From positions 40,789,949 through 40,853,948 of the forward strand of contig OX387182.1 of NCBI GenBank assembly GCA_947561395.2: a stretch of DNA of 64,000 nucleotides. The letters are read 5' to 3'. Positions 12,893-59,344 of the stretch are shown here, in pieces (positions within the stretch are counted from its first letter, which is position 1; each line of letters starts with the position of its first letter). The stretch is from Buxus sempervirens (lineage: Eukaryota; Streptophyta; Magnoliopsida; Buxales; Buxaceae). Position numbers and translations under genes: made by a program. The notes under the pieces are model-generated. The model worked only from the letters and a program-made list of their open reading frames with translations, did no database searches and was not told the DNA's origin.

Positions 12893-12906
12893 GGCAAAAT
12901 TTTCGT

Positions 12907-24667: not shown

Positions 24668-26059
24668 TGTGAGACATGAGAAAAATCAATTCAATGACTT
24701 CCTAATCATCACACGGGATTGGTTAAAAACACATAGTCGTCACCATTCTGTTTAGGTGTGAATTGGACACCAAAATATCAAATAAGCACAAAACGGCAAA
24801 TTTAGGGTAAAAATAACCCTCTAAAAAATAACCAGAGATAGGTAAGGGGATTAGGTTATGAACAGGGGAAGGTGTTAGGCACACCTATTCATCCACACAA
24901 GGTGGTTGCCAGGCATTGTTCATGTTAAAATAAAGGAAAAATGGCTTGCTACAAAAATCATGAAAAATCACAAAAAAGACAAAACTATACGGTTTTTTTT
25001 CATACGAATAGCCTGATTGATCCAGAACTTTCAAATATGATCATACCATTCCTAGGGTTTCATGATTAAAATAAAATTGAGATAAAATCAAATAAAACCA
25101 AAATAAAGTGAAAACTTCAAAAATCTGGCTTCAAGTTAAATTCTAGAAATCTAGAAAAATATGATTGTTATAAAATATTGCAGAATTAAACTTGAACAAT
25201 CCAAGACATAGGTATAGCCCATATTTCACATTAGATCAAGAAATCAAAACCAAAAATATCCACGTTGATGAAGAACATCAAAATGGGAGAACTTAGACCG
25301 TAGGGTCTTCTCTTAAACATGAAAAACGACTCAAAAACCACTTCATGAAACCCTAGAAGTTACTTTCAGGCTTTTGAATCCAGATCTATCATATAGATCA
25401 TGATAGATCCAAGATCTTAGCCTAATATCACAAAATCACGAAAACAGTGCCTTAGGTGCAAAAGTGGTGAAAATCTCAATTTTAGGAGAAAAAGAGGATT
25501 TCATGCTATAAACATCATAGACATCATAGATTCATTCAGATTCAATCAAAATATCATTAAAACCTAATCATGATATTCAAAGCAGCCATATCTCACAGAT
25601 TAGAGCACATGGGGGTCTACCCTACGGATCCACCTGTTCTCTTTTCCCCTAGCTCTCTCTTCACGTTTTACGGCTAGAGAGACTCTTGAGGTACTTGGAG
25701 ATAGGTTTGGGTATACAAACACAATCAAAGGCCTTATTCTAGAAAAAAAGAAGAAAAACAGATATGGGGTTCTATTCTAAGGATCCACCTGTTCCCCTTT
25801 CCCCTAGCTCTCTTTTCACGTTTTACGGCTAGAGAGGATTCTTGAGGTACTTAGAGACAAGTTTAGGAATACAGAATAAAAGAAGGCCTTATTCTACAGC
25901 AATGGAGAAGATCCTATTATCTCTAGAATTGAAGACAGAAAATAAAAGAGAAAAGGGACTTACCTGGATTGAGCAAGCAGAGTAGGAGGGATTCCTCTCT
26001 TCTCTTGGAGCTCCTTGGACTTCAAATTTTCATGGCCCCTTGCTTAAGGATCTCCTCTC

Positions 26060-26067
26060 TATTTATA
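26060..26067 (-). promoter_or_regulatory. TATA box of LTR C
   Basis: TATTTATA on the + strand, with the TATAAATAGAG context on the minus strand as in the other LTRs. The palindrome array starts 202 bp upstream, the same distance as in LTR B. Confidence 0.6.
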
Positions 26068-26268
26068 GGCAAACCCAGGGGTAAGGCTGGTCCAGAAGGA
26101 TATACCAAGATCCCACCAGATTGGGTTAAAAATAGGGATAATGCCCATCCATAGCCAACAAAGATATTTCGAACGAATAAAAGAGATAATTCGCTCATTT
26201 AAAGAGATATTTGACTGAAGATAAGGCTCTGAAATCAAGAAAGGATAAAATTCTCACAAAAACATAGC

Positions 26269-26372
26269 GCCCGTATATATATTGCGGGCAAATGTGCCCT
26301 TATTCTTATTACGGGCACTGTGTGCCTGTATACAAATTTTGGGCGCGGCCAGCCCGCAGATATAATACGGGC
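26269..26372. repeat. Palindrome array 1 of copy C (U3)
   Basis: Four 21-bp units start at 26269, 26296, 26324 and 26352 (27, 28, 28 bp apart). Each is a variant of GCCCGTA-n7-TACGGGC. Copy B has its array at the matching place. Confidence 0.8.
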
Positions 26373-26475
26373 ACTGCCTAAATTATTGAATTTTATGCAT
26401 TTTTGGCCTGTTTTAAATCCCTATTACATGTTTTCATTATTTTCTCATTTTGTAGTGCAATTTGGGGTGTCTACA

Positions 26476-26822: not shown

Positions 26823-26926
26823 GCCCGTATTTGCATTGCGGGCTTATGAAGCCCGTAATTTGAATACGGGCGCAAATGACCGTAATACCTTTGCGGGCGC
26901 CTATTGCCCGTATTGCTTTCACGGAT
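26823..26926. repeat. Palindrome array 2 of copy C (PMD leader)
   Basis: Four 21-bp units start at 26823, 26851, 26878 and 26906 (28, 27, 28 bp apart). The second is near-perfect: GCCCGTA-n7-TACGGGC. The PMD leader (AACCGCGGCCGCGAAC) follows directly. Confidence 0.85.
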
Positions 26927-34742: not shown

Positions 34743-36651
34743 TGTGAGACATGGGAAAAATCACCGGGATGATTCCCCTCTGTCAACACACGGGTTCAAC
34801 ATAAAAATGGGAGAGTTGCCACCATTCAGATTTTGGGTGTGAATGGACACCAAAAGATTCAAAAATAATCAAAAGAGTTAAAAGACAAATTCTAGAGTAA
34901 AAATAACTCTACTTGAAAATCAAATCCAGAGATGGGTAAGGGGATTAGATTATGAACAGGGGAAGGTGTTAGGCACCCCCATTCACCCACACAAGGTGGT
35001 TGCCAAGTGTTTGTTCATGCAAAAAAAAAATAAGAAAGTTTGCTACAAATCATTAAAAACCTTGAAAAAGGACAAATGTATGATATCTTCACATGAAGAT
35101 CTAAATGGATTTCAGATCCTCTTTTATGTCAATATCATTTCTGGAACATCACCAATAATGGAAATCAAAGCAAAAATTGCACAAAACAAAGTTGAGTTAA
35201 ATCCGGAAAATTCGGTAAAAGCAAGAACCATTTGTCTTGAAATCATTCAAATCCAATTTTAAATTAAATCAAACCAAATCCATTTGAAAGATTATGGCAA
35301 ATAAGAGACTCATGCAAAATTTCAATTAAATCCGGTTGAAATCCTAGGAGTTATGCTCCTTTAAAATCTGCTGCTGGAGATGATTAAAAGTGACAAGTAG
35401 GCAAGTTTGGAAAATCACCTAGAAAAATTGGCTCCATATAAATTCATGAAATTTGGTGTGATTGAAGTCTGTATGGCCATCTTTCGAATGAAACTAGCCT
35501 CATACAAAAATTCATTCGGATGTGCCTTGGGTGGTCTCCTGAACAGGCCCCGAAGATCACAGATTTACCCAAAAAAGTACTGTTGAGCAGTTCTGAGTAA
35601 ATCTGTTACCAACAACACAAATGGAGTCAAAAAATTATGAAACTAACTGGATTTGAAAATAGACTCATCAAGGAGTGCCCAGAAACAAAATTCACTTGAA
35701 TCGGATTTAAAACAAGCAGATGGCGCCCATTCGAAGTGATAGGTTCAACAGTTTGACCTGAATTGACCTATCAACTTCGAATGAACGGTGTCAAACATCT
35801 GCTTGATAGAAATTAATGAAATTTGAACTAAACAGCCTCACCTTTCCCATGGTTCTGGAATCACTCCAAAATTCATCCGGATGATGAAGTTATGAGTGTC
35901 CGAAGTTGGGGTACAGTTGCTATCAAGTTAAGCCATATTTGGAGAAAATTAATTCGAAACAGTGACAAGAGGTGTGTGATCCGTGCAAGATAGATCAAAA
36001 TCACTTGAAAATCATTTAAAGACATTCCAGAATTGCTTGAGGCTATTTATTTCAGATTTATCACAATAAATGCAATAAACCCGAAATATGAGCCTATCCT
36101 GCCAACATCGCGTACTATGTATGTGTAAGTGTAAAAATCATTCCAACAACATAGCAAAGATAGCATGCATTCATATCAATCAAAATAGGGTTCTAAAAAC
36201 AACCTACGGTTCCGTTCCATTATCGTTTCCCTTAGTTCTCTCTCCCCGTTAAACACGGTTCTTCAAGATAATCTTGGGGTACTTTGAATATAGAACGGTC
36301 TTCACAGATTCAAAAGGCTTATTCAAAAGAGGTTCTAGCACTAGGATCAATCCCCAGTCTCGTTTCACCTAGATCCCACCTTCACGTTTTACGGCTAGGG
36401 GGAGTCTTGAGATACTTTGAGTAGGGGAAGGGTTTTCACACACATCAAGGCCTTATTCTACAGAAAGGTAGAAGAAGAGATCTAGATCTAGAATGTAAAA
36501 ACAGAAAATTAAAGAGAGGTTTGAGGCTTACCTGGATTCTGGAAGCAGTTCCGCAGCGGTTCCTCTCTTCACTCGGAGCTCTTCTTGGCAAAAGTTCTTG
36601 CCAAGAGTTGTTGGCAAGAGTTGTTGGCCATTTGCTTAAGGAGGAGCCTCC

Positions 36652-36659
36652 TATTTATA
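36652..36659 (-). promoter_or_regulatory. TATA box of LTR A
   Basis: TATTTATAGGC on the + strand, TATAAATAGGAG on the minus. The palindrome array begins 167 bp upstream. Confidence 0.55.
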
Positions 36660-36825
36660 GGCAAAGGCTAGGGTTAGGGTTGGTGAGATGGTAGACATAA
36701 CATAAGGTCCATAGCCCACCAACCTTAACCCTAAGGCTATTTCCGAGATTTCCACTCATTTAATGAGGGATATGATGGTAAAAGGTGAAAGCTCTCGGAA
36801 AACCCTAATTTTGAGCAAAACTAAT

Positions 36826-36967
36826 GTATCCGACATGTCAGGTTGGATACACAAGCACCTATGTGTATCCGGCATATGTTGCCGGATACATTAAGGGCGA
36901 TTTGTATCCGGTATTTTCCATCGGATACGAAGAAATATGCTTGTATTCGACCTGAGTTGTCGGATAC
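36826..36967. repeat. Palindrome array 1 of copy A (U3), 39-bp period
   Basis: Four 25-bp units start at 36826, 36865, 36904 and 36943, exactly 39 bp apart, with 14-bp spacers of unrelated sequence. The units fit GTATCCG-n11-CGGATAC with one or two mismatches. Confidence 0.9.
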
Positions 36968-37069
36968 AAGGAAAAAACTCATTTTCTCAAATTTTGTGCT
37001 GGTTTCCAAGGAGATAGTGATTTTTATTGATTATTGATCATTTTTACTATGCAATTTGGGGTGTCTACA

Positions 37070-37083
37070 ACTGCCCCTCTTTG
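37070..37083 (-). other. Polypurine tract of copy A
   Basis: The minus strand reads AAAGAGGGGCAGT immediately before TGTAGACACC. It corresponds to the tracts next to LTRs B and C. Confidence 0.6.
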
Positions 37084-37469
37084 TGGGAGTTGCGAAGCAA
37101 TGAGCTGCAAAGATTAGACAAGCCCAAATTGTACTCCCTTAACCATGATTTGCTTGGTTCAATTCAATTTATTAAAAATAATTTTTGGGTGAAGATTTGC
37201 CAAAAAGCCCTAACTTTAAGGGGGCATTTCTCTAAGAATTCTTAAATTCCACTGAGCTCTCGTGGCTATGAAGTGGATTTTAAGCCCAAAAATAAGATTT
37301 TTTGAAAACTGATTTTTTTATCAAACCAAGTTAAAAGTTGAGAATATCTTCCTTTTCGACCAACACATTTCCCCACGTTGTCCTAAACTCCACTGAGCTC
37401 TCGTTGCTATGAAGTGGATTTTAAGGCAAAATAGGGATTTTTTGTGAAAATAGCAGACTTTGCAGCTCA

Positions 37470-37632
37470 TTTCTTTTTGCTCCTCCTCTTTTCTTCTTTT
37501 TTTTTTCTTTTTCTCTTTTCTCCCTTTTTTCTTTTTTTTTGTTTTCTCCTTTTTTTCCCTTTTTTCCTTTTTTTCTTTTCTTTTTCTCTTTTCTCCCTTT
37601 TTTCTTCTTTTTTTTTTTCTGTTTTTTCTTTT
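37470..37632. repeat. Long polypyrimidine tract
   Basis: About 160 bp are almost pure T/C on the + strand, with only a few G residues, directly before palindrome array 2. The lysine-rich frames on the other strand are products of this composition, not genes. Confidence 0.8.
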
Positions 37633-37696
37633 GTATCCGACGTAGCATGTCGGATAAGAGAGAGCTCCCTTGTATCCGACATCGTATGTCGGATAC
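37633..37696. repeat. Palindrome array 2 of copy A, two units
   Basis: The 25-bp units start at 37633 and 37672, again exactly 39 bp apart. The second, GTATCCGACAT-n3-ATGTCGGATAC, is a near-perfect palindrome. A TTATTTAA box follows at 37702, and the PMD leader comes next. Confidence 0.9.
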
Positions 37697-39172
37697 ACCC
37701 TGTTATTTAAGTCGCGCGCGACCGCGACTTTCCCTCTTCCTTTCTTTCTTCCCCGATTGCAAACCCCGGCCACAAACATCCTCTCCTGTGTCGATTGTCG
37801 ACTTTCTTTTCCTCCGGCGACTTTTACTAGCTCCGTCGACTTCCGTTGTTGTCGGTGATAGCTATTCTCTCCGGCAACACTCTGGCGATCATCCATTCAC
37901 AATAGTGGCCGAGCCCTAGCCTGGTGTCTGATTTCCGGCGAACTCACCTCCTGGCGTTAGGGCACCATCCTCCGGCGATTGCTTCCTCATCACAGCGACC
38001 TGAGCAGCCCTCTTTCCCATTGTTCTTGCTTGCCACAGCGATTGGTTTGCTTTCTTCGGCAGCAAACTTCTTTTCCAACTTCAGGTAAGTCCTTTGAATT
38101 ACTTGCATTGATTGGGATTTCTGCTGAGGAGGAATTCTGGCCGAATTGCCTCATTTTCCATGTTCCTGATTACTTTTGAATGGTAAATTTGCCTTGACTG
38201 CCAATTCTTGAGTTGTCTGCCGATGGAGGCTATATTGCATGCTTTTCCGATTGATACCATGCTAACCTGATTACCTTGATGCTTTTCTGAATTGCTGATA
38301 TCGCACTGCCATTCACATTGGCTCTTTCCGGATCGGATTGCCAATTCTTGACTTGAATTCGGATTACTTGTTGGTGGTAATTCCCTGAATTGTTAATTGC
38401 ATGCTGGATTTTCTCTATAATTGGCTTGGACCTCCTAAAATTGATTCAATTTTCTGCAATTCTTTAAGATTGACCGACTGGTGGTCTTTTCCCATCAAAA
38501 TGTATGATTTTTCAGACGACACGCCGCTGATACCATGCTGTAATTTTCTTGAATTCTGATTTTCATACCATGCTGCAATTGAATCATGCTGCAATTTTTC
38601 TTGACTGGAATTTTGCTTCTTATACCATGCTGCAATTGAATTCCGATTCCTATACCATGCGGCAATTTTCCCTTGACTGGAATTCTGATGCTGCAATTTT
38701 TGTTGACTGGGAATGTATTTCACAATTTCAAATGCTCCTCTTCAAAGGTTGTGACTTATTCCTTTTTCTTAATTTGCCTTGGTGGTAGTATACTTCCGAT
38801 CAATGTGGTGCTCCAATTGTCAGAACCTTTCCATGATTGGCTATTGGAACTTCATTCCTTTTCCGCTTGCATGTAGGAGCCCTAAAATAGGTTAGTAGAT
38901 ATTAAGCCTTGTACATATCTTTTAGGACAAAATGCATTAGGACTAGAATAGAAATATTTCCTAAAAAACTTCGAACTAAAACAGAGAACAAAATTCCCTC
39001 AAGACATAATTCCTGATAATTTTGAAAAAGTCCTTTAAGATTCTTGAGGGAATAGCAGCTAAAGCCAGGCGAGATTCCTGATAAACTTGAATGGAAACCT
39101 AGACTAAAGGTAAGATTCTTGATAAGCAAAGTAGGATAAATTTGAACTGAAACACTTCCCTGTTACTTGTAG

Positions 39173-41978
39173 ATGGCTAGGAGTCGTTCCCGTGTTCGGG
39201 AGGAGGCTGACCCTGCTGATCAGCCCTCCATTTCACGGGCTCGGACAGAGGCGAGTTCTAGCGCCACCCAGTCAGAGCAGCTAGATGATTTCAGAGAGAG
39301 CTCTGCTGAGGGCTCTGCTGAGGTAGGCTTCCCAATCTTTTCTTCTTTCTTTCCCTGCTTCCTTTAGAATCAACTTCCCTTATTCAATTTTTTTGCTTTT
39401 AGCCTGTGGTTGATCCTGTTCAAGGCCGTGGTAGAGGCCGTGAGAGAGGCGGAGGCAGAGCTGGTGAGAGGGGTCGAGGCTGAGCTGGAGAGAGGCCGAG
39501 GCCGGGCCGGAGCTTCAGGCCAGGAGGGTGCTGCTTTACGCTTAGGGGTCTCTGCGGAGCTGAGAGCGTCTGTTCATGATACAGAGCTCCTTAGTGGTTT
39601 GGATAGCCACCCGTCCATGTGCATCCGGGCCAATGTGCCTCTTCCATATCCTCCTTCCCATCTACGAGGTAGTTAGGGGAGATTCAGTGAGTTGGCGCAG
39701 TCACTTTCCCCGGCACTTAGGCGTGAGTTTGGGAGGTGCCATCTGGATTATTTTCTTAGCATCCTGTCATTCCGAACCGACCGTTCCATCATCTTCGCTA
39801 TGATGGAGCGATATTTTCCGGAGACGCAGTCGTTCCATCTTCAGGATGTGGAGCTGGGGATCCGCCCTTCCGATTTTGTGATGATCACTGGCATTCCTCT
39901 GATGGGGCAGACTATTGTTTTGGATCAGCCTTTAGTGGAGGATATCGGCCTTCTCTTGGGATATCAGGACCTGCCTCCTGCTACTTGGGACGGGCGTAGT
40001 GGTCGCATCTCCATCAGTTGGCTACGGGAGAGCCTTGCTCATCATTATGAGGGGAGACACGCTACCATCACTGTGGAGGATGCAGCCTTCGCCCCTATTT
40101 TCCTGCACGTGTTTCTGCTGATGCTTGGGAGCTGCTTCTTCCAGGAGGACACGACCAGTGTTAGTCCTCTTTTCCTGGATGCTCTGCGAGATTTCCATCA
40201 GACCCGCCAGCTAGCATGGGGTCGGCTCATATATGGGACTATCTTGGCCGGGTTGTACCGAGTATTTCGGGGCTTGGCTGCTCCGAGAGGTGATGGAGTT
40301 AGCTGCAGGTTCTTCTAGCAGATTTTGCAGGTATTAAATTCATCTGTCTTGTCTTATTTCTTAGGCTTTATCTTCTTTATCTCTAACTGATTTTCTTTTG
40401 CCAGGTGTTTATGTACACCTACATGACTTTCTTCCACCCATCCCCAGTACCTGGTGTTGCGAAGTTCCCTGTTGCTTTACGGTGGTTGGCCCAGGTCCGA
40501 GATGCTGATAGGAGTCAGCCTCGCACTGCTTGGGTTCACTTGGACCGTGCCCGACGATCCGATGTAAATTCTTTCCCCTTTTTCCTTTTATTTCTTTTCC
40601 TACACCTTGACTGTATCTGACCATTTTTCTTCTTTGCAGCTCATCCTGGCACACTTTGACGATGTGGATGTTGGACTGGCCCGTGAGATAGTAGTACAGG
40701 ACGCCTTTGATAGAGATCTCCGACGTCAGCCCTACCAGTGCTTCCTTGGGAGGCTTGGTAGGGTGATGTATTTGGGAGAGCGCCTGTACTATCAGCACAC
40801 ATGCACACTTCGTATCCCCATTCCCCCTCCTCCTGTGGGTCCTGACACGTTCCAGTCTGGTTTTGATATTGGCCAGTTTGACCAGTATCAGGATGCGGAG
40901 GGGCTCACAGTAGCTAGGGATTACGACGAGTGGATCCAGAGAGTATCCATTGGGTGCTTTATGGATCGACCCACTCGTGTCGGGGTGACCGAGATTGGCG
41001 GGATCTATATCCGGGTCCACAATGATACGATGAGTTCTGTGATCTTCATTTTCATCCCCTTCCTTCAATCCTGTATTTCTGACTCTAATTCTGTGCTTAT
41101 TGGCAGGTACATGAGTTGAATGCTCTCCGGGATCGATTCCTGAGTCAGCAGGCCGCAGTGGATGATATGATCGCAGAGCATGATGCGGTCGTGGCCCAGA
41201 GGGTTGCCCAGATTAGAGAGCTGGAGGCTCTGGTTGCCGATCTTCAGGCTCGACAGGTATCTGGTTTATTTATAATTTCATCTCTTTTATTTCTATGTTT
41301 TTGCTATTCTAATATGCTTGTTTGACTTTTGCTGGGCCCGGTCCTAGATCAGGATGCTGCTTTTGAGCATGATTTCCCTGTACCTGATCCATCTCCGGCT
41401 CGGGTTGCTGATCCTGATGATGTCCCGGCTGCTGTTCCTGATCCTACTGCATCTCCTGCACGTGCTGCTCCTGCGGATCCTGGGGCTCCCGTGGACCCTG
41501 TAGACATTCCGGTTGCAGACCCGAATCTTACTGCTCCTGCCGGCGCTTCATCCCCTGTGGCGACTCCTGATCCTGCTCCTGAGGTCCTTGGTAAGTTTTC
41601 TTTAGTTTCATTTCCTTGGTTCATTTGGATACCTCAGTTTCTGATTTTTCTTCTGTTGGCCCAGCTATTTCTGTTCCTGGCCCCGCTTCTACTGCTGCTG
41701 GGCCTTCTAGATCTGCGGGAGCGGAGGCCACTGTGACGGAGGGTCCAGTCGAGCCTGTACATGCTGAGCCTGAGGCCTCTTCCCCAGATTCTGCTTCTGA
41801 TCCGCCTCCAGACCTTTCGGAGTATTTCTTGGAGTATTAGATCCAGTCGGTTGCGGGTCGGCTTCCTCGCCATGCTGCCGAGTGTATTCTGGCATACTCT
41901 AGGTGCCGATCACCTCGAGGTAGAGGTTGCAGAGGAGGATGGGGCAGAGGACGTCGAGGTGATCCTGCACAGGAGTAG
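39173..41978 (+). pseudogene. Plant mobile domain accessory gene of copy A, broken
   Basis: ATG follows the acceptor of a 5' UTR intron (38084-39172). Exons: 39173-39322, 39403-40330, 40405-40563, 40640-41038, 41107-41256, about 41348-41590 and 41665-41978. The protein has an R/S-rich start, an RG-rich stretch, the PMD (FHLQDVELGIRPSDFVMITG, then IFLHVFLLMLGSCFFQED and RQLAWGRLIYGTILAGLYR), a PMD C-terminal part in exons 3-4, a coiled coil in exon 5, a P/A/D-rich linker, and an RG-rich tail. PMD occurs in host proteins MAIN/MAIL1 and in many plant transposons. Damage: a frameshift in the RG stretch near 39470, TAG at 39674 and 40316, and TAG at 41838. Its longer exon set shows what copy B has lost. 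Confidence 0.75.
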
Positions 41979-42183
41979 TAGATTAGGATATTTATGTTTT
42001 TTTTTTCATCACACTTTGTAGAGAGAAGCTTACATATATATATGAAAGAAACTTTTTATTCATTCTCTTTTGTCTTGCCTTCTTTTCTTTTTAATTTCAT
42101 GCAATTATGACTTGTACACAGGAAAAACAGGTAAAAATTTTGGATTTTTCTCCATTTTCTCTTTTTTTTTGCATTTTTTCTTT

Positions 42184-42325
42184 GTATCCGACATATCAGA
42201 CCGGATACACTGACTCTGCTTTGTATCCGGTATGTTTTGTCGGATACACATGGTCCCTTTTGTATCCGGCATTGTTCATCGGATATGAATAAAATCCCTT
42301 GTATCCGATCTGATATGCCGGTTAC
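42184..42325. repeat. Palindrome array 3 of copy A, before the DUF7745-like gene
   Basis: Four 25-bp units start at 42184, 42223, 42262 and 42301, exactly 39 bp apart. They fit the same GTATCCG-n11-CGGATAC model as arrays 1 and 2. The array ends 12 bp before a TATA box. Confidence 0.92.
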
Positions 42326-42337
42326 ATTAAAAAGTGC

Positions 42338-42345
42338 TATAAATA
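42338..42345 (+). promoter_or_regulatory. TATA box of the DUF7745-like gene, copy A
   Basis: TATAAATA lies 107 bp upstream of the ATG at 42452 and just after the palindrome array, giving a short 5' UTR. Confidence 0.65.
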
Positions 42346-42451: not shown

Positions 42452-44156
42452 CCAATGGATTCCAGATCATCCTTTGCCTTGCCATTGTCTGTCCATGCAG
42501 CCTCCCCTGCAAAACAGCATTTTAGATCTAAACCCCCTAACCTTACTAGGTATAATCCTGTGGACTCATTTTACACTAGATGGGTTAATTCTATGACCCT
42601 TGATGAAGAGAGGAGATGGGATTCCAACCATCTAGGCCACATTCTGCTCATCCCGAAGATTCCCTTCAAGTGGGAGATTATTGAAGTCATGATTGGTCAT
42701 TGGGTACCTGACTTAAACCTTTTTCATTTTGGGGACCATGAGATGACCCCAACCATTGAGGAGGTTGAAACTATCCTGGGTTTGAGGTTTGCAGAGAAGG
42801 TAGTGAACCCCCCCTTAGGCCCAGCTACAAGAAGGAGGCTTCTACTTTCCTGGGTATAGGGAAGAAGGATTTAGGGGATTCTGATACCCTTTTGACTTTG
42901 TCCAAGTATTTTTTGATTGAGAAGCTCTTGAGGGGGGAGATCAAGGAAGCCATGTTCAATGCCTTGACCCTGATAGTGGTTAACCAACTGCTTTTCCCAA
43001 GGGATGACGATGAGGTGGACTTGGCCCTAATCTCAGTTGTATGCCAGGTTAGGGAGCGGGAGAGATTGACTCCTATGATTTTGGCAGATATGTATCAGGC
43101 TTTGACTGACTGTTACTACAGGAAGGCAAAGCGCTTCCTGTCATGTGCCCCTATCCTGCAGGTAATTTTTTTCTTTTTTGCTATTTTTTTCTTTTTCATC
43201 TTTTTTGCTTTTTGCTTTTTTTTTTCCTTTGCAATACACTGAAATATCTCTCCTCCTTTGCAGCTTTGGCTACTTGACCACCTGAGTTAGATTGAGGAGA
43301 TCAATAGGCACTTCTTCCCAAGGTTGAAAGTTCTCATTTTGATGAGCAACCGGGGGTGTCCTGACATTCCAGGGGGTAAACAGGGCTGGTTTACTTTCTT
43401 GGCTACACTCTAGGACGATCAAGTGAGGTGGCCTGGTACTTATCAGCCCAATGTAGAGACTGTGATCAGTTTCCGAGACCGCAACTTTTTGGTTCTGGCT
43501 GGCTTGAAACATGCGGTGCTTTACCTTCCTTTGCGGGTTCTTCGTCAGTTCAGAGCAACCCAAGGGATTATCATCCCAAGTGGGTACGAGGACCATCTTG
43601 GGCCACTTTCACCAGCTACGATGAAGCTGAATGCTTGGTTGACGAGAGAGTGGTCCTATATTCGCTTTATGCGTGGCCCTGTCTTCTCAGAGTCCCATGT
43701 GAAGGACTATCTTTTCTGGATCAAGGAGCAGATACAGAGTCAGGCCCCAGTACCTGAAGATCCTCCTGCATCTTGGCTCCTACTTATGAGGACATCCTGG
43801 AGTATGAGAGAGCTTCTCACAAGAGACTTCAGCAGATATGGGTACGAGAGGCCCAGGAGCTTAGGATACTGGGCCTTGACATGGAGAGGCAACTTGCAGA
43901 GCAGGTATCCCGTCGTCTTGCTATGGAAAAGCAACTTGAGGAGCAGAGGCAGGCCCGCCGCTTTGAGGTTCGGATGATACGGCAGAAGTACCAGGATGCT
44001 TTAGCCAGCCTTAGGAGCATGTAGATTAGACAGACCCTTTCAGATGAGGTCATTTCCTTCTTGAGTGATTCTGCTGCAGAGGGGGCTTCTGGAGTCATTG
44101 CAGCTCAGGCAGCTTGGATTCGGGAGCTTGAGGAGCGCCTAGGAGACAGAGACTAG
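42452..44156 (+). pseudogene. DUF7745-like accessory gene of copy A, broken
   Basis: Exon 1 is 42452-43161 and exon 2 is 43264-44156, ending in TAG. Landmarks: NLTRYNPVDSFYTRWVNSMT, KWEIIEVMIGHWVPDLNLF, EMTPTIEEVETILGLRF (typical of DUF7745 proteins), RFLSCAPILQ at the exon end, FLVLAGLKHAVLYLPLRVLR, then a long coiled coil (MERQLAEQ, MEKQLEEQRQARRFEVR) ending in a short acidic/basic tail. DUF7745 proteins are known mostly from plant retroelements; their role is unknown. Damage compared with copy B: a one-base loss near 42830, TAG at 43288, TAG at 43411, a frameshift near 43770, and TAG at 44022. Stop context shows CAG-to-TAG changes. Transcribed toward pol, tail to tail. Confidence 0.7.
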
Positions 44157-45129: not shown

Positions 45130-46217
45130 TCAAGGAAAATACCTTTTTACTGCATCAGAGTTAATCGGTTTAGGAAAGTCTGTCCCATCCATTTCTGTCA
45201 AGATGAGTGCACCCCCTGACAGGACCTTCTTGATGACATACGGCCCTTCCCAATTTGGCTTGAACTTACCACGAGGATCTTCCAAAAATGGTAGAATTTT
45301 CTTTAGAACTAGGTTTCCTTCCTGGAAAGTTCTAGGCTTTACCTTCTTATTGTAGGCCCGGGCCATTCTCCTCTGGTACAATTGGCCATGACACAGCGCC
45401 CTTAAACGCTTCTCTTCTATTAGGTTGAGTTGATCACTTCTTGACTGTATCCATTCAGCTTCTTCTAATTCAGCCTCCATGAGAACTCTGAGTGATGGGA
45501 TTTTTACTTCCACTGGCAAGACTGCTTCCATTCCATAGACTAGGGAATACGGGGTTGCCCCAGTTGAAGTCCGGATTGAGGTTCTGTAGGCATGTAGAGC
45601 AAGTGGCAGCATTTCATGCCAATCCTTGTAGCTTACTACCATCTTCTGAATGATTTTCTTTATATTCTTGTTTGCTGCTTCCACTGCCCCATTCATCTTT
45701 GGCCTGTACGGAACGGACTTGTGATGGGTAATCTGAAACTGCTCACACATCTTCTTCATGTCCTTGTTCTTAATATTTGAAGCGTTGTCTAATACTATGG
45801 CACTTGGCAGTCCATAGCGACAAATAATGTTGTGCTTCAAAAATTTAATAACATGGTTGCTTGTGATATTCGCATATGAGGCTGTTTACACCCACTTAGT
45901 GAAATAATCAATCGTTACCAGGATGAATCTGTGCCCGTTTCATGCCTTAGGGGAAATCATGCCGATGACATCTATGCCCCACATGGAAAAGGGCCACGGT
46001 GATGTCATGTTGTGCAACTCACTTGGGGGTGCGTGCTTGTTATCTGCATATATCTGACATTGGTGACACCTCTTGACATGTATACAGCAATCATGCTCCA
46101 TGGTCGACCAGTAGTATCCCAACCGCAGGATCTTCTTTGCCAACATGTGTCCGTTCATATGGGGTCCACAAACTCCTCCATGTACGGTCTCAATCAACCT
46201 TTCCGACTCTGCCTTAG
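45130..46217 (-). pseudogene. Integrase part of copy A pol
   Basis: The minus-strand frame from 46217 holds an H2C2 zinc-binding motif (GPHMNGHMLAKK, then HVKRCHQCQ), followed by the catalytic core with MWGIDVIGMI, VLDNASNIKNKDMKK and NGAVEAANKNIKK, which supply the D, D and E residues. A GPY-like segment (NWEGPYVIKKVLSGGALILT) lies near the end, with a stop at 45130. Internal stops follow SPKA near 45940 and KWV near 45885. The frame continues across the solo LTR insertion into the RNase H part. Confidence 0.8.
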
Positions 46218-49200
46218 TGTCAGCACCTCATTTTTGCGCACTGAAAATGTCGAAAATGAGAACCCTAATTGAAAAAGTCAAACCCAGAAGGGTCAAAAGT
46301 TGACTTTTTGATCTGGCATGAATTGATCACCAAGCTTCATACCATTGGATAGAGGATTCCGATACGATTCCAACAGCACCAAGATTGTCCAAATCGGAGT
46401 CCAAATGAAGAAGTTATGAGCTGGTCAAAACTGGGAATAGCAGAAATCAACTTTCTGCTAAAACCCAGATTAGTTGTCTGATCTGGCCCCAACAGAGAGA
46501 GCACGTTGACACGATTCCAACGCAACCAAGTTTGCTGGAATCGGGGTTTCGGATAAGAAATTATGAGTAAAATCGGTTCCCGGAGGGCAGTTTTGACTTT
46601 TTGCTAAAAGCTGAATCAACAGTTCAATTTTATACCTGTGGATAGAGATTTTCGACACGATCCTAACGCAACTGAATTTGCTAGAATCGGAGTCCGGATA
46701 AGGAAGTTATAGGCCGGTCAAACTTGGAAATAGCAGAAATTGGCTTTCTGCTAAACTTCTAATTAGCTGCTTAATTTCATACCAGCAGAAAGTGCACATC
46801 GACATGATTCCAACGCAACTGAGTTTGCTGGAATCGGAGTCCCGGGTAGAGAGATATGAGCAAAATCAGCTCTGGGACGCGATTTTGCACTTCTGCTAAA
46901 AATCTGAACTTGCTGCTAAACTCTGACTCAGTGGGTAGAGCATCTCGTACTGATTCCAATGCCACTAAATTTGCTGGAATCGGATACCAGATGAAAAAGT
47001 TATGAGCAATCAAAGTTTTGAAAAATCTGCACACGTGGCAAATGCTGAAGCAAGAGCAATAAAGTAAAAGTTCTGAATTAAAAAAATAATTAAAAATAAA
47101 TAAAAAAAATAAAAATGCAAAGGACGCATGTGCTCAAAACAAAAGAAAAAAATCTTAATAAAATAATCTTAAAATCAAACAATATCTCATAAATTAAATA
47201 ATTATAAAATAAAATAAAATGAAAAAAATAATAAAAAATTCTTTTTACCTCATGGGGGAATACGTGTCCCTTAGCTGTGATGTGATATCCGTAAGATGTG
47301 AATAATGGGAGAGAATATAATCATGAGTTTCCTTACAAAGACAACATGGAATCATAGAAATTTTAGGTTCTAGTTATAAGATAAAAATTATTTACATTTT
47401 AGTCAGTTTTGTTAATTGCCTATAAAAAAGGGGTCGACTTGTTCTTCCAGACACACCTGATCTCTCTCACTTCTCTCACACCCTGCCTTTGGCCTTACCC
47501 ATTTTTGGCTGCAACATTCATGCCTTCCTTCAACCTCCAAATCATCCTCTTGATCCCTATTTTACCCTTTGAGACATCTCCTTTATTCCTTTTGGTTCTT
47601 CTATTCTCCTAAGAACCAACAATAGATCATTCTTGGAACTAAGGGAAGCTCTAAAGTGGTTGTCAACGTCACTTGGAACTATCACATAACTGGTGGAGAA
47701 GGTAATCGTCAAGGTGAGGTTTCTTTGATTTTTTATTCAAAATATATCAAGATCAAATGAGATTAAGTAAGTTTCTTTCTATATATGGTATTGTTTATTT
47801 GTTGAAGTTGGTTTCTCGCTGTTTACCTTTCTTTTGCATGGTTCTTGGAGTTCCCACGGTAAAGGGGACTCTCCATATTAAAAATGAGAGAGAGAGATAA
47901 TCTCTAGTGGGTGAAGCAAAACAAAAGTAGAAGGGAGTTGTTATTTTTTTTAAATAGATCTATCCCTTGTCTCTACCGATTTCTTTTTTATCATTCAAGA
48001 GGGGTTGTGTCCTCTTTGTTCTTGATGTAACCTTAAAATGTTTTTTCCCCCCTTTCCCTTCTTTATTTCTGCTTTCGTTTATCTCAAAGTATAGTAGCAT
48101 GTTGATAAATGAGTTATATTATATGTATGTTTGTTTGTAGTTTTGATAGGATCTAAGTAGGAAGAAAGCATCACACACTCACTTTTTTTGTCTCATCTCA
48201 GTTTTTTTTTCTTTTACATCGTGTGATTAAACAAGTTTAAAATCTATTTCTACTTGTCTAGTCTTCTTAGATATTAGTAGGAAACTCTTTATTTTCTAAC
48301 TCACTTGTACATTCCTTTCATATCACCATCTTTGGTATGTTTTAATTTATTTTCAAAGACATATTTGATTTCTTAAAAATCCTCTTCACTTATCATTATA
48401 GGATGCTTTATCTTAAACAATGTATGTATTCTTGATTCCTTGTGAGGATGAGGTCAATGGTCATGCAACGAGCTCAGATGTGTGTGGCCTTTTTAAGCCA
48501 TACTCAATTTCTTTAATAAAAAAAAATGTGAACCTTTAAAAGACAAAGAATAAGGACTTCTATAGTCCCTATTTTGGACCCTTAAAGACCAATTTTGGAG
48601 GACGTGAGAAGTCCCCATCACTCTCCACTTCTTCTTTGTTAGAAAAGTTCCTTGAAAGTGAAGCTTTTAGTCAAAAATTGAGATGCTGGTATCACTGTGA
48701 GCACCTGGGAAACCCAGAAAAAGTCGGCGGATGTCCCAGGGAAGAAGCCGACGATCGGAGCTACACCGAAGATTCGGTCATTCTTGAATTCCGGGTCAAA
48801 CCGCCCTGGGTCTGCGGTTAGACCCAAACCGCAAAGAAAGTGCAGTCAATTCCAAAATCCCTAAAAAGCCGATTTTTTAGACCCGGGTCAACCTGATCCG
48901 ACCCGAATGACTTTAAAATGAACCAGGTAGGCTTTTGGGCTAACCCAAGCCCACTTTTAATAACCTGGGTCTACTTGGACCCACCAAGGCATTGTGGGTC
49001 TTCCAATGGAAATCCAGATTGACCCATACCAAGATCCATTTCATAAATGGGTCTCGGGTCACTTGATTAAAAACCCATGGGCCAAGTCAAAACCCAATGG
49101 GCCTTAAAAACTTAAACCCACTCAATTAAATTTCATGTTTAATTAACTTCAAAATTGAATAACCAATCCAACAAGGGTTACCCAATAACCCTAATGGGCC

Positions 49201-49619
49201 ATGGGTTTGACTTAAAACCCAACTCGGCAACCAATGGGTCTTCCAACAGGGCCCATATCCGACTCACTTCACATAAATGGCTAAAAAGATAAAAATAAGT
49301 AAAAGGACTTACACCTGAAGAAAGTCCCAACAGACTTAATTTGATATGTGCTGGAATAGGACAAGGGTGAATATAGTTCACTCAAATTAGGGTGACCCAA
49401 GGGACCCGCTGAACCGGCGGGGCGGACCGGGGTGTCTTTGGACTTCCCCGGACCGTAACTGAGCAATTATCTAGAATCTCAAGCCGTAGACCAAAATAGT
49501 CCCGGTTAGGTTACCTTGTGTCTGCCTGCACCTCTCAGGCAGTGGCGACTCCGGTATTCCATCTTTTAGGAGGCACACACCCGACACGTGCGCCCCGCCG
49601 TGCGATTTCACCGCGCACA
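46218..49619 (+). mobile_element. Solo LTR, 3402 bp, Tat-like, TSD CTTAG, inside pol of copy A
   Basis: It starts TGTCAGCACC, ends CCGCGCACA, and is flanked by perfect CTTAG repeats (46213-46217 and 49620-49624). No internal genes are present. Plus orientation is supported by a TATA box (CCTATAAAA) near 47420 and by GGCAGTGGCGACTCC near the 3' end. It is related to the LTR at 11231-13703. Five tandem units of about 148 bp lie in U3 (46358-47000). The palindrome arrays of its relative are not seen. Confidence 0.88.
46340..47010. repeat. Tandem repeat, about 148-bp period, five units, in U3
   Basis: A GATTCCAACGCAACTNANTT block followed by GCTGGAATCGGAGTCC and GTTATGAGC recurs near 46358, 46507, 46654, 46800 and 46949 (spacings 146-149 bp). 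The same unit occurs at least twice, inverted, in the solo LTR near 13393 and 13541, also 148 bp apart. Confidence 0.8.
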
Positions 49620-51499
49620 CTTAGCAACACATCTTAGTAGAATGTCATTATGTGACCTCTTGTACAAATGTCCACCACTTAGCAGAAACTGACCAGCTAA
49701 TCTCTGTATTGTCCTTTTCTCTGTAGAAGTGGCATTTTCTGGCAACTTCCGATCATTCAAGAAATTTTTGATATCTTGAAACCATGGTGCTTCTTCTTCG
49801 GGTGCTCCTTCTAGAACAAGACAATTAGCCGGTTCATCCCTGACCTCAATTTCTAGTGGTTTGATGTCTACCCCTTCTAGCATGCTGACCATTGGAGCCA
49901 ATGTTGCTAGAGCATCCGCAAACTGATTTTTGGCCCTCGGCATATATTTGAAGGAAATTCGAGTAAAATTTGTGCTTATTTTTTCCAAATACTGGTGATA
50001 GGGGATCAATTTGTGATCCTTGGTTTTCCATTCACCAGTTGTTTGGAAGATGATAAGACTCGAATCTCCGTATACATCAAGTTGCTCCACTTCATGATCT
50101 ATGGCGGCTTGCAACCCAATTATACTTGCTTCATACTCTGCAATATTATAGGTGCACTGGAATCTTAGCTTTGCTGCAATCGGGAAGTGTGAACCATCTG
50201 GTTTGACCAAGACTACCCCTATTCCGTTTCCATTCATGTTGATGGCCTCATCAAAGAACATTTGCCAAGAACTCTCACTTTCCTCTTCTTCAGTAAATAG
50301 AATTGCCTCATCGGGAAAGTTGGTCTTTAACGGTTGGTATTCTAGCAAAGGATGTGCAGCCAGGTGATTAGCAATGGCTTGCCCCTTGATCGCCTTCTGA
50401 GTGATGTACGTGAGGTCAAACTCGGACAGTAGTAGTTGCCATTTTGCCGTTCTGCCAGTCAGTGCCGGTTTCTCAAATAAATATTTCAGAGGGTCCATCC
50501 GAGATATCAATAGTGTGGAGTGACTAAGGAAGTAATGCCTTAGCCTTTGAGTTGCCCACACTAGAGCACAACAAGTCTTTTCCAATTGTGAGTATTTGGC
50601 TTCATATTCAGTGAATTTTTTACTCAGATAATAAATTGCCCTTTCTTTTCTACCAGTCTCATCATGCTGCCCCAAGATACATCCCATTGACGTTTCCACC
50701 ACTGACAAGTACAGGATCAGTGGTCTTCCTGGAGTTGGTGGCACTAGCACAGGTGGGTTCAGTAAATACTCCTTGATTGTGTGAAAGGCTTCTTGGCAAT
50801 CCTTATTCCAGACCGTCGAGTTATTCTTCCTTAGAAGTTTGAAAATTGGTTCACAGATAGCAGTGAGTTGTGCTATGAACCGGCTTATATATTGAATTCT
50901 TCCAAGAAAGCCCCTAACCTCCTTCTCTGTTCTGGGTGATGGCATTTCAATTATGGCCTTGGCTTTAGTCGGGTCAATTTCAATTCCTCTTCTGCTTACT
51001 ATAAATCTTAGCAACTTTCCTGATGTAGCCCCAAAGACGCATTTAGCCGGGTTGAGCCCTAGACTGTACTTCCTGAGACGGTCAAATACCTTCTTCAGAT
51101 TGATCAAATGGTCCTCTTCTTTGCACGATTTGGCAATCATATCGTCCACGTAGACCTCCATCTCCTTATGGATCATGTCATGAAATAGTGCGGTCATGGC
51201 CAGCTGGTATGTTGCCCCAGCGTTTTTAAGCCCAAATGGCATGACTGTATAGTGGAATGTGCCCAAGATGTGATGAACGCTGTTTCATTTTGATCTTCCT
51301 TAACCATTTTGATCTGATTATACCCAGAGAAACCATCCATGAAGGAGAATAGGCTATGCACTGTAGTATTATCGACCAGAATGTCGATGTGTGGAAGCAA
51401 AAAATCATCCTTTGGGCTTGCCTTGTTCAGATCTCTATAGTCTACACACATTCTGACTTTCCCGTCTTCTTCGGTACCGGCACTATGTTTGCGAGCCAT
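49620..51499 (-). pseudogene. RT-RNase H and archaeal-type RNase H of copy A
   Basis: The minus strand holds VRMCVDYRDLNKASPKDDF, FSGYNQIKM, HYTVMPFGLKNAGATYQ, the RT active site EVYVDDMIAKS, GFLGRIQYISRF, then the Ty3 RNase H (ILYLSVVETSMGCILGQHD, AIYYLSKKFTEYEAKYSQLE). A second RNase H-like domain follows (MFFDEAINMNGNGIGVVLV, YNIAEYEASIIGLQAAIDHE, VYGDSSLIIFQ, FADALATLA). This dual RNase H with a GNGIG/DSSL type second domain marks Tat-lineage elements. Frameshifts are near 51470 and 51265. The downstream end is cut by the solo LTR at 49619. Confidence 0.85.
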
Positions 51500-52536: not shown

Positions 52537-53907
52537 TGTGAGATATGGAAAAAATCAAATCCAATGACTTCCTCAATCATCACACGGGATTAAATTAAAC
52601 AAAGAGTCGCCACCATTCAATTTAGGTGTGAATGGACACCAAAATATTAAATAAGCTCAAAAAGGCAATTTTAGGGTAAAAATAACCCTCCTAAAAAACA
52701 ACCAGAGATGGGTAAGGGGATTAGGTTATGAACAGGGGAAGGTGTTAGACACCCTTATTCATCCACACGAGGTGGTTGCCAGGTATTGTTCATGTTTTTC
52801 AAAGAAAAAAAGGCTTGCTATAAAACTCATGAAAAATCACAAAAAAGACAAAAATATATGGTTTTTTCATATGAATAGTCTGATTGATCCAGAACTTTCA
52901 AATATGATCATACCATTCCTAGGGTTTCATGATTAAAATAAAATTGAGATAAAGTCAATTTAAAGTGAAAAATCCAAAAATCTGGCTTCAAGTCAAATTC
53001 TAGAAATCTAGAAAAATATGATTTTTATAAAATATTGCAGATTTGAACTTGAATAATCCAGGACATAGGTATAGCCCAAATTTCACATTAAATCAAAAAA
53101 TCAAAACCAAAAATACCCACGTTGATGAAGAACATCAAAAGGGGAGAACTTAGACCGTAGGGTCTTCTCTCAAAAGTGGAAAACAACTCAAAAACCACAT
53201 CATGAAACCATAGAGGTTACTTTCAGGCTTCTGGATCCAGATCTACCATATTGATCATGATAAATCCAGGATCTTAGCCTAAAATCACAAAAATCACGAA
53301 AACAGTGCTGTAGGTGCAAATATGTGGAAAATCCAAATTTTATCAAAAAAGTGGGGATCTCATGCTATAAACATCATGGATTCTTGTTATTCATTCAGAT
53401 TCATCATAAAAACAATTAAAACATGATCAGGATATTCAAAGCAGCCACATCTCACAGATTAGAGCACATGGGGGTCTACCCTACGGATCCACCTGTTCTC
53501 TTTTCCCCTAGCTCTCTTTTCACGTTTTATGGCTAGAGAGGATTCTTGAGGTACTTAGAGATAGGTTTGGTGATACAAACACAATCACAGGCTTTAAAGG
53601 AGAAAAACAGATATGGGTCCTATTCTAGGGATCCACCCGTTCTCTTTTCCCCTAGCTCTCTCTTCATGTTTTATGGCTAGAGAGACTCTTGAGGTACTTA
53701 GAGGCAAGTTTAGGAATACAAGTACAAAAGATGGCCTTATTCTACAAAAAAAGAGAAAATCCTATTGCTTCTAGAATTGAAGACAGAAAATAACAGGGAA
53801 AAGGGACTTACTTGGATTGAGCAAGCAGGGCAGCAGGGATTCCTCTCTTCTCTTGGAGCTTCTTAGACTTCAAATTTTCGTGGCCTTTTGCTTGAGGAAA
53901 GGCCCTC

Positions 53908-53915
53908 TATTTATA
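53908..53915 (-). promoter_or_regulatory. TATA box of LTR B
   Basis: Minus strand TATAAATAGAG, identical in context to LTR C. Confidence 0.6.
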
Positions 53916-54116
53916 GGCAAACAAAGGGGTATGGTTGGTCCAAGGTTTGGCAAGATAGACTTTCAGATTGAGTTAAACACAAGGATAATGCCACTCCTTT
54001 GTCTACAAAGATATTTCGCACGAATAAAATATATAATTCGCTCATTTAAAGGGATATTGGACTAAAGAAAAGGCTCAGAAATCGAGAGAAGAACAAAACT
54101 CGCACAAGTCTGATGT

Positions 54117-54221
54117 GCCCGTAAATGATTTACTGTCCAAAGGTGTCCGTATATGTATTACGGGCACTGCGTGCCTGTATATAAAATTCGGGCGCGCTTA
54201 GCCCATAGATACAATACGGGC
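54117..54221. repeat. Palindrome array 1 of copy B (U3)
   Basis: Four 21-bp units start at 54117, 54145, 54173 and 54201, exactly 28 bp apart. The arms are variants of GCCCGTA and TACGGGC, more decayed than in array 2. Confidence 0.8.
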
Positions 54222-54323
54222 AAGGCTCTAATTATTCATTTTCATGCATTTTTGGCCTGTTTTAAATTCCAATTAATGTTTTCATTATTTTCTCATTTTG
54301 TAGTGCAATTTGGGGTGTCTACA

Positions 54324-54663: not shown

Positions 54664-54767
54664 GTCCATATTTGCATTACGGACAGATGCTGCCCGTAAT
54701 TTGAATACGGGCGAGGTGGACCGTATTACCTTTACGGGCGCCTGTAGCCCGCACTGTCTTTACGGAT
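54664..54767. repeat. Palindrome array 2 of copy B (PMD leader)
   Basis: Units start at 54664, 54692, 54719 and 54747 (28, 27, 28 bp). The shorter middle step is the same as in copy C, showing inheritance of the array as a block. The leader AACCGCGGCCGC follows. Confidence 0.85.
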
Positions 54768-58089: not shown

Positions 58090-58222
58090 GACCATAATTA
58101 GGTTACGAGTGAGCCGTGCCCGTAATATTAATGCAGGCGCACTCTACCCGTGAATGTTCCACGGTCACAGTGTGTCCGTATTCTTTATACGAGCATGCCT
58201 TGCTTGTATTCTAATTACGGAT
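58090..58222. repeat. Palindrome array 3 of copy B, before the DUF7745-like gene
   Basis: Five 21-bp units start at 58090, 58118, 58146, 58174 and 58202, exactly 28 bp apart. Arms such as CCGTA and TACG are eroded, but the phase is intact. TATA follows 22 bp later. Confidence 0.8.
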
Positions 58223-58252: not shown

Positions 58253-59059
58253 CTCAAGGGGGACGTCATTGTGACACTTTTAAAAGTTTGAAAACTCACT
58301 GAGCCTTCCGTTTTCTGCTTTACTTGGCTTCTTTGGTACTTCCATGGCTTCCCTCGCCCCTTTCACTTCTATCGATGAATCTCCTTCTGCAAGACAACCT
58401 GTTAGATCAAAACCTCCTAATCTCACAAGGTACAATATTGTGGATTCCTTCTATGATAGGTGGGTTAACTCCATGGCCCTTGATGAGGAAATTCGTTGGG
58501 ATTCCATCCACTAAGGGCATATCCTACACATCCCTAAAATTCCCTTTAAGTGGGAAATCATTGAAGCTTTGATTGGACACTGGGTTCCTGAACTGAATCT
58601 CTTCCGTTTTGATGACAAAGAGATGACTCCTACCATAGAAGAAATTGAAACCATCCTTGGCCTAAGATTTTCTGAAAAGGTTGTGAACCCTCCCCTAAAG
58701 CCTAGCTACAAAAAGGAGGCCTCTACATTCTTGGGTATAGGGAAGAAGGACTTAGGAATTCTGATACCCTATTGACCTTGTCCAAGACCTTTTTGACTGA
58801 AAAACTTCTAAGGAGTGGGGACAAGGATGCTAGGTTTAATGCTTTGACTCTGATAGTGGTCAACCAGTTGCTCTTCCCATGGGGTGATGACCAGGTTGAC
58901 TTGGCTCTCATCTCAGTTATCTGTCAAGTTAGGAAACGTGAGAGATTGGCTCCTATGATCTTGGCAGAGATATACCAGGCTTTAACTGATTGCTATTTCA
59001 GAAAGAATAAATGCTTCCTTGCCTGCGCCCCTATCCTACAGGTAAAAAAGAAATAAAAA

Positions 59060-59200
59060 TAAACTTTTTTCTTCTTTTTTTTTCTTCTTCTTCTCTTTTT
59101 CTTTTCCTTATTTTTTTCTTTTCTCTCTTTTTTTTCTTCTTTTTTTTCCTTTCTTTTTTCTTTCTTTCTTTTTTTTTTTCTTCTTTTTTTCTTTTGAAAT
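59060..59200. repeat. Polypyrimidine tract in the intron of the copy B DUF7745-like gene
   Basis: About 140 bp are almost entirely T and C on the + strand. The lysine-rich opposite frames are composition artefacts. Confidence 0.8.
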
Positions 59201-59344
59201 AAATTGAAATTCTCCCCTTTTTTGCAGCTTTGGTTGCTTGACCACCTGAGTCAAGTTGAAGAGATAACTCGCCACTTCTTTCCAAGGTTGAAAGTTCATG
59301 TTCTGATGAGCCACAGGGGTTGTCCTAATATCTAAGGCGGCAAG

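Follow-up and report, generated by a model that had tools for sequence, protein, structure and literature searches.

Phased palindromic arrays with family-specific sites in plant Ty3/gypsy elements that carry an antisense plant mobile domain gene

The closest described counterpart of the system reported here is found in VANDAL elements, which are MULE DNA transposons of Arabidopsis that encode VANC proteins. As far as the available text of two reports goes, VANDAL elements likewise have arrays of short family-specific motifs in non-coding regions, the motifs differ between otherwise similar elements and are matched to a diverging element-encoded protein, and the arrays turn over and evolve together (PMC5735166, PMC10398659). 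We analyzed a 64,000-nucleotide (nt) stretch of plant-like DNA from Buxus sempervirens (the window), which contains nested Ty3/gypsy elements, i.e., long terminal repeat (LTR) retrotransposons. One of them, copy A, is inserted on the minus strand and has a 3' LTR, then two plus-strand genes for a plant mobile domain (PMD) protein and a DUF7745-like protein, and then pol on the minus strand. Copy A and its relatives carry element-specific arrays of evenly spaced palindromes in their non-coding regions, as VANDAL elements carry arrays of their motifs. Our best reading is that the system resembles VANC/VANDAL but resides in an LTR retrotransposon and uses another protein.

The two systems also differ. 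VANDAL elements are DNA transposons with VANC, whereas the element studied here is a class I LTR retrotransposon with pol, PMD, and DUF7745. The VANC21 motif is, in the available text, a 9-mer arrayed in one orientation, while our sites are palindromic, have a shared core, and follow a strict phase. Both binding and demethylation are reported there for VANC (PMC5735166, PMC10398659), whereas for PMD binding is a proposal.

Several parts of the system have precedents in plants. PMD proteins in genes and Gypsy elements are treated in PMC5418596; according to the accessible parts of the sources, 57% of Ogre elements contain PMD, and Gypsy elements encode the PMD-A clades (PMC6317226, PMC5418596). 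Ogre/Tat elements share with ours the order RNaseH, second RNaseH, integrase, a PMD open reading frame (ORF), and apparently a gag ORF apart from the reverse transcriptase (RT) ORF, but the accessible parts of these papers mention neither operator arrays nor promoter wiring (PMC6317226, PMC5418596). In the Retand TRP28 case, an antisense extra ORF between pol and the 3' LTR is a predicted DNA binder and a proposed regulator, and about half of the Retand elements hold tandem arrays in the antisense-ORF region; the protein belongs to another family, and the text available to us does not describe the arrays as phased palindromes at promoters (PMC11963269). The PMD proteins MAIN and MAIL1 are tied to a short DOWN motif that occurs in most of the genes commonly losing expression in the mutants; these are host genes, and direct DNA binding is not shown in the consulted part of that work (PMC7156037). 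Among the literature titles and abstracts searched (most subscription papers and all bioRxiv preprints were outside the scope), phased palindromic arrays in PMD-bearing retroelements were not found. A preprint on PMD protein–DNA motif modules in Arabidopsis reportedly exists; it did not turn up in this search.

Copy A contains three arrays of the palindrome GTATCCG-n11-CGGATAC. Array A1 in the U3 region of the LTR (36826..36967) has four units, which start at 36826, 36865, 36904, and 36943. Array A2 at the start of the PMD leader (37633..37696) has two units (37633 and 37672), and array A3 before the DUF7745-like gene (42184..42325) has four (42184, 42223, 42262, and 42301). All ten positions had been named in the initial annotation and all were recovered by a motif scan that allowed up to 3 arm mismatches of 14. 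The scan gave 12 matches in the window against a mean of 0.56 in shuffled sequences, and none of the 100 shuffles reached 12. Ten matches are the named positions with 0-1 mismatch each; the other two are lone and have 3 mismatches. The proposed 39-bp period also holds throughout: all seven within-array steps are 39 bp (39/39/39 in A1 and in A3, a single step in A2), and all ten loops are 11 bp. Column counts over the copy A palindromes show that the 7-bp arms are the most constrained part, with weaker R/Y positions inside.

The arrays do lie next to promoters, as had been claimed. The LTR TATA box TATAAATAG (36651..36659, minus strand) was read from the sequence and lies in a region that aligns with copies B (78.3%) and C (78.7%). 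A TATA-like stretch follows soon after 37696. The TATA box TATAAATA of the DUF7745-like gene (42338..42345, plus strand), also read from the sequence, stands 12 bp past A3 and is present in most alignment rows.

The spacers had been described as unrelated in sequence. This is true of neighbouring units, which share 0.33 (A1) and 0.38 (A3) of their non-arm positions, and a simple recent tandem duplication within A1 or A3 is therefore excluded. It is not true of A1 compared with A3. In register, 51 of the 86 non-arm positions are equal (0.59; the other six registers give 0.27-0.45), as are 52 of 56 arm positions. Because of this agreement, A1 and A3 probably descend from one four-unit array that was copied from one place to the other, the arms and the phase having outlasted the spacers.

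The palindrome is abundant in the genome (676.5 Mb in 247 contigs were searched). With loops of 9-13 bp allowed, 30,657 exact-arm A palindromes were found, compared with 4 for a reversed-pattern control; together with the shuffles, this excludes a chance origin. Although 9-13 bp were allowed, the loop is 11 in each of the 50 plus-strand sites listed (these are the first on C1, and some are repeated copies). Adjacent pairs CGGATAC-n(2-30)-GTATCCG occur 18,603 times versus 25 in the control. Among the 50 pair matches listed, 14 are nested second matches; the spacer in the remaining 36 is 14 bp in 34 cases and 13 bp in two.

Fifteen regions (L005-L019) were chosen for an exact A palindrome, and figures obtained from them are biased towards conserved sites. 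The layout of copy A recurs in these regions: LTR arrays, two-unit PMD-leader arrays, and four-unit DUF7745 arrays, with a further array 1.4-1.6 kb beyond the LTR end (the gag leader) in six of them. The LTR arrays of L009 and L010, as well as those of L014 and L015, are identical at 142 of 142 positions, as they should be if each pair marks both ends of one element. The LTR array was found in 12 further motif-chosen loci with steps of 39 bp except one of 38. Over 13 rows of this alignment (the irregular array of L007 was left out), the mismatch is 3.9% in arms, 31.7% in loops, 35.2% in spacers, and 23.5% in flanks. The contrast is weaker in the gag-leader array (six rows; arms 5.7%, loops 13.1%, spacers 8.8%, flank 9.6%). 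Four further copies have an alignable PMD-leader array of two units (the two-unit leader array of L008 was left out), which differs from that of copy A at 1 of 28 arm, 18-20 of 22 loop, and 8-10 of 14 spacer positions.

The loci L020-L049 (A-type) and L050-L069 (B-type) were selected by protein homology and not by motif. For the A-type set, a search with the N-terminal piece of DUF7745 gave 4,740 candidates, of which 150 were scored; the 30 best-scoring loci were taken, and these include the window. The DUF7745-promoter array is present in 28 of the 29 other loci, with four palindromes in 27 cases and three in one. The remaining locus, L048, has no array; the alignment suggests a deletion, and this locus was left out of the 29-row alignment. 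In that alignment, the mismatch per compared position is 7.7% in arms, 20.1% in loops, and 28.4% in spacers, and it is 15.0% in the 5' flank, 8.4% on the TATA side, and 9.3% in the first 60 coding bases. Thus other family members keep the arrays, and arms and phase persist while spacers drift, in line with the selection on spacing suggested initially. Step and arm-change counts are based on 225 A palindromes (duplicates L001-L004 and L020 were left out). The spacing is far from random: 159 of 165 A-type steps are 39 bp, five are 38 bp, and one is 64 bp.

We rejected the notion that copy A is the unique carrier of such arrays. An open palindrome scan found arrays that the A motif does not match in copies B, C, and D of the same window. 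The site of copies B and C is GCCCGTA-n7-TACGGGC in steps of 27-28 bp (up to 4 arm mismatches of 14 were tolerated), and it is found in the LTR, in the PMD leader, and, in copy B, before the DUF7745 TATA box. The copy B LTR carries array B1 (54117..54221; four imperfect palindromes, steps 28/28/28), its PMD leader carries B2 (54664..54767; four, steps 28/27/28), and B3 (58090..58222; five with 2-4 arm mismatches of 14, step 28) precedes the DUF7745-like gene. The corresponding arrays of copy C are C1 in the LTR (26269..26372; four, steps 27/28/28) and C2 in the PMD leader (26823..26926; four, steps 28/27/28). Copy D is a solo LTR of another family. Its arrays D2 (three palindromes) and D3 (two), located at 12907..13121 beside the D TATA box (12884-12892), have the GCCCGTA-n7-TACGGGC site and a step of 28 bp within each. 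Array D1 (12019..12123) consists of four palindromes of the ACCGTA kind with a step of 28 bp and was left out of the column count. Thus two codes are seen in one LTR, GCCCGTA beside the TATA box and, about 0.8 kb further along in the direction of transcription, ACCGTA.

Copy A aligns with copies B and C in LTR pieces, TATA regions, and coding parts at 66-80% identity; the 28-bp LTR end reaches 96-100% and a leader piece 81-86%. Blastn joined no array of A to any array of B or C. The B-type set was obtained from 5,033 candidates, of which 150 were scored; 20 loci were fetched, and three (L070-L072) were extended upstream. All 20 B-type loci examined have a DUF7745-promoter array of 2-5 palindromes (one of the leader type), and 67 of the 72 steps are 28 bp, with four of 27 and one of 56. 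The mismatch over 20 rows (with the leader-type array of L066 left out) is 11.0% in arms, 24.1% in loops, 23.9% in spacers, 22.3% in the 5' flank, and 13.3% on the TATA side. The upstream extensions of L070-L072 contain B-code arrays in the LTR and the PMD leader; a search for the A code with up to 2 mismatches found no site in them. The LTR counterparts of B1 have four palindromes in L071 and L072 and three in L070, all in steps of 28. In the PMD-leader array, the middle 27-bp step (28/27/28) is kept in all five copies (B, C, and L070-L072).

No B-code site (up to 3 mismatches) was found at the DUF7745 promoter of the 30 A-type loci. No A-code array was found at this promoter in the 20 B-type loci, six of which have lone 3-mismatch matches only. 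B-code sites also occur in four of the 15 motif-chosen regions (L006, L009, L011, and L017), apart from the A arrays and partly beside other LTR matches; we take them for neighbouring B-type copies. Copy B extends rightwards past the window edge (region L073), where a gag-leader array in B code with 28-bp steps lies about 2 kb before gag (L073:8900, 8928, and 8956). A-code loci carry A-code arrays at the corresponding place. Arrays are thus located at four places (LTR U3, gag leader, PMD leader, and DUF7745 promoter), in each family in its own code. That a related family has the same layout with a different site suggests a DNA-binding regulator encoded by, and matched to, each family.

It could be argued that the arrays merely arise as tandem repeats turn over, or that host silencing targets them, and that they play no role in the transcription of the element. 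Recombination between arrays does occur, judging by the agreement of A1 and A3 in register and by L066 (G000:C4:26205929-26206469), in which a B-family array of the PMD-leader type sits at the DUF7745 promoter, as if PMD-leader and DUF7745 arrays had recombined. Arrays also contain gaps (28 bp in L054 and L069, 55 bp in L051), and the loops of A2 differ more than its flanks. Array turnover thus belongs to the picture, and exchange between arrays would provide a route for a new site to reach all places. As the whole explanation, turnover or silencing is very unlikely: in two families the arms are retained as loops and spacers diverge, 159 of 165 steps preserve the phase, the arrays are found again at four regulatory places, and spacers are not shared between neighbours within A1 or A3.

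The encoded proteins differ in how they follow the site. Between copies A and B, pol is 89% and 90% identical and the DUF7745 pieces are 69-86% identical, whereas PMD is only 44-51% identical (46%, or 99 of 213 positions, for the PMD exons of the two copies). Within A-type copies PMD diverges no faster than DUF7745 (83-85% and 84-90% identity, respectively). Judging by this divergence of PMD against conserved pol and DUF7745, PMD, and not DUF7745, is the gene that changes together with the site code. An exchange of the 3' part alone would be insufficient, since the distant gag-leader array has switched too, while pol between the ends is 89%/90% identical.

The binder might instead be the DUF7745-like protein or a PMD/DUF7745 heterodimer. 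DUF7745 is itself PMD-like (a weak PMD match falls in the same piece), it is encoded beside PMD, a large array lies at its promoter, and arrays of a third code, described below, precede a DUF7745 gene. We regard this possibility as distinctly improbable in view of the 69-86% identity of DUF7745 between families with different sites, compared with 44-51% for PMD, and of two single-exon DUF7745 members that have no array before them (L074 and L075; 521 bp each).

The third code came from a Pfam-wide DUF7745 search (5,752 candidates, of which 118 were scored), after which five further 521-bp upstream stretches were read. One of the five has the B code. Two loci of a third family (L077 and L078) have AACCG-n11-CGGTT palindromes before the DUF7745 gene. 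The core CCG-N11-CGG is common to all codes, while the outer bases differ: GTAT in A, GC in B, and AA in the third family. In the window the core occurs 30 times, versus 0-6 times for other gaps of 5-19. Eight of 10 A palindromes, all five of D2/D3, and three of four of D1 have an intact core on both sides. The steps of 28 and 39 bp differ by 11 bp, about one helical turn, and neighbouring sites would therefore have nearly the same rotational setting. Such a shared geometry speaks for the binders being dimeric proteins of a single family.

Repeated boxes for host factors are common in plant LTRs. Host transcription factors could bind the arrays, each family recruiting a different dimeric factor of the host. 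The A half-site contains TATCC/GGATA, which we take to be similar to I-box/TATCCA-type MYB-related sites, and the halves of the B site, CGTA..TACG, are presumably reminiscent of NAC/VOZ sites. We nevertheless consider recruitment of host factors unlikely. Three codes with one CCG-N11-CGG core point to one protein family; the PMD leader, the DUF7745 promoter, and the gag leader are in the same code as the LTR; and PMD diverges with the code while pol does not. All three arguments are indirect.

Another possibility is that the palindromes act as RNA hairpins or cruciforms, for example in packaging or processing. Their arms are complementary and several arrays lie in transcribed leaders. However, among arm changes in the 225 A palindromes 153 are one-sided (52 of these leave a G.T pair) and only one is compensatory, and arrays are also located upstream of TATA boxes. 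We rejected this reading in view of the near-absence of compensatory changes and assign it practically no probability. The excess of one-sided changes rather indicates that each half-site seems to be kept for itself. Every half-site contains a CpG, through which methylation could gate binding; inside the core, CpG transitions rank with the most frequent arm changes.

We consider it fairly probable that each family is a self-encoded circuit, in which its own PMD protein binds phased operators at its own promoters and leaders, and site and protein diverge together. Here we infer binding itself, PMD as the binder, dimers, cooperativity, and activation or anti-silencing. In this circuit the antisense PMD protein would bind, probably as a dimer, palindromic operators with the fixed core CCG-N11-CGG, and the outer bases would provide family specificity (GTAT|..|ATAC in A, GC|..|GC in B, AA|..|TT in the third family). 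The fixed step of 28 bp, or of 39 bp as 28 plus about one helical turn, would set neighbouring dimers at a nearly equal rotational angle and thereby allow cooperative binding. One factor would then serve the transcription units of its family, its own gene among them, either by turning them on or by shielding them from silencing; methylation of the operator at CpG could gate its binding. Between families, site and PMD would change jointly. The broader reading, to which we give even chances, is that a class of plant LTR retrotransposons has a private PMD-dimer/CCG-N11-CGG code with specificity in the outer bases, that new families arise by a joint switch of PMD and operator, and that host MAIN/MAIL with their motif could descend from such circuits or share ancestry with them.

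Several points weigh against the self-encoded PMD circuit. At the DUF7745 promoter, the TATA side (8.4%) evolves as slowly as the arms, and the arms are partly defined through the motif itself, which favours their conservation. A third of the one-sided arm changes leave a G.T pair. The association between PMD and the code is drawn from two well-sampled families. In the 3' part, the arrays of the LTR, the PMD leader, and the DUF7745 promoter neighbour PMD, and linkage explains part of the association; only the gag-leader array is distant, and for B it was seen in one copy. The shared core was noticed after the fact, and both of its halves are intact in only 11 of 20 B/C palindromes. In the third family the steps are uneven, 28+41 in L077 and 69+28 in L078 (places 28/41/28 apart), and the 521 bp upstream of the two single-exon-family DUF7745 members L074 and L075 contain no array. 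A comparison of PMD with solved structures gave no match showing a DNA-binding fold and one weak match (E=0.025), and a heptad check for a dimerising coil in two tested pieces was no better than shuffles. PMD is a putative rather than a proven sequence-specific DNA-binding domain; direct recognition of the DOWN motif by MAIN/MAIL1 is offered as one of two hypotheses in the available text of PMC7156037.

The other parts of copy A are as follows. Its 2.3-kb 3' LTR of Ty3/gypsy kind (34743..37069, minus strand) has ends that match the LTR ends of B and C in blastn, with TG...CA read from the sequence. The PMD exon (39677..40315, plus strand) is antisense to pol and matches PF10536 (E=3e-13); the PMD domain is spread over several exons. 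The DUF7745-like gene (42455..43977, plus strand) has an interrupted frame and matches PF24924 in two pieces (E=3.5e-6 and 2.2e-11), with a sub-cut-off Pfam match to PMD (E=1.4e-4). In pol (45133..51284, minus strand), the integrase occupies 45133-45885 and the RT, RNaseH, and second RNaseH occupy 49611-51284; Pfam matches are RVT_1, RT_RNaseH, and RVT_3 after RT_RNaseH, and rve (E=2.3e-5) is below the cut-off.

In copy B, the 3' LTR (52537..54323, minus strand) was delimited by blastn to the LTRs of A and C, with ends read from the sequence, and the PMD exon (56256..57155, plus strand) matches PF10536 (E=2e-14). The DUF7745-like gene of copy B (58344..62816, plus strand), identified by alignment to copy A and from the sequence, contains an in-frame stop and is split by a 3.0-kb insertion (59345-62354) with TG...CA ends (TGTAAC...TTTTACA) and a 5-bp duplication, GCAAG. 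The insertion looks like a solo LTR of another element. Copy C is truncated (24668-28419), and its LTR (24668..26475, minus strand) is 85.7% identical to that of copy B in blastn. The solo LTR of copy D (11231..13703, minus strand) was recognized from its TG...CA ends and a 5-bp duplication, GCTGG; in blastn it gave nothing against the A LTR and only array or TATA pieces against B and C.

The domain order, the PMD gene, and an apparent split of gag and RT ORFs point to the Ogre/Tat group. In copy B pol, a second RNaseH lies between RNaseH and integrase (RT_RNaseH 72-176, RVT_3 231-349, rve 516-613), as the order of that group requires. The extra PMD ORF antisense to pol is present in both copies. 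On the minus strand of L073 (one copy), the gag frame ends at 3631 and the RT frame starts at 3429, leaving a gap of about 200 nt; a frame break splits the RT ORF. The criteria are those given in the available part of PMC6317226. No protease family was matched among the L073 ORFs. Protein database searches with PMD found no relatives, and scans of viral contigs for the A and B codes found no site.

Some further observations were made on the way. A GC-rich leader start follows the PMD-leader array at about 37710-37990 in A (CGCGCGCGACCGCGACTT) and 54785-54945 in B (CCGCGGCCGC), and several CCGGCGA-like repeats, judged by eye, lie downstream of it in both copies. Between the gag-leader operator array of copy B and gag, L073:7520-8760 contains a 30-50-bp unit repeated imperfectly in tandem about 30 times (30 matches of a short unit piece), which is outside the operator code. 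The motif-chosen region L008 has LTR, PMD-leader, and gag-leader arrays and gag, with no PMD, DUF7745, or pol query match between them; it is perhaps a shortened derivative able to depend on a factor from other copies. Elsewhere in the window, an uninterrupted 949-aa frame (16900-19749, minus strand) is, judged by eye, similar to a resistance gene of the nucleotide-binding site leucine-rich repeat (NBS-LRR) kind. A fragment of Ty1/copia-like RT, also judged by eye, lies directly left of copy A (34121-34627, minus strand).

The arrays offer a concrete and cheaply testable proposal for what the antisense PMD and DUF7745 genes do inside plant Gypsy elements, namely a self-encoded family-specific regulator with mapped putative operators. 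If this is true, the VANC idea of counteracting silencing at one's own family only would no longer be confined to DNA transposons; it would apply to LTR retrotransposons, which are abundant, and to a different family of proteins. It would also point to a DNA code for PMD proteins, among them MAIN and MAIL1, which are silencing factors of the host. One genome contains sites by the tens of thousands and more than one code, so that the co-evolution of protein and site can be read by statistics alone.

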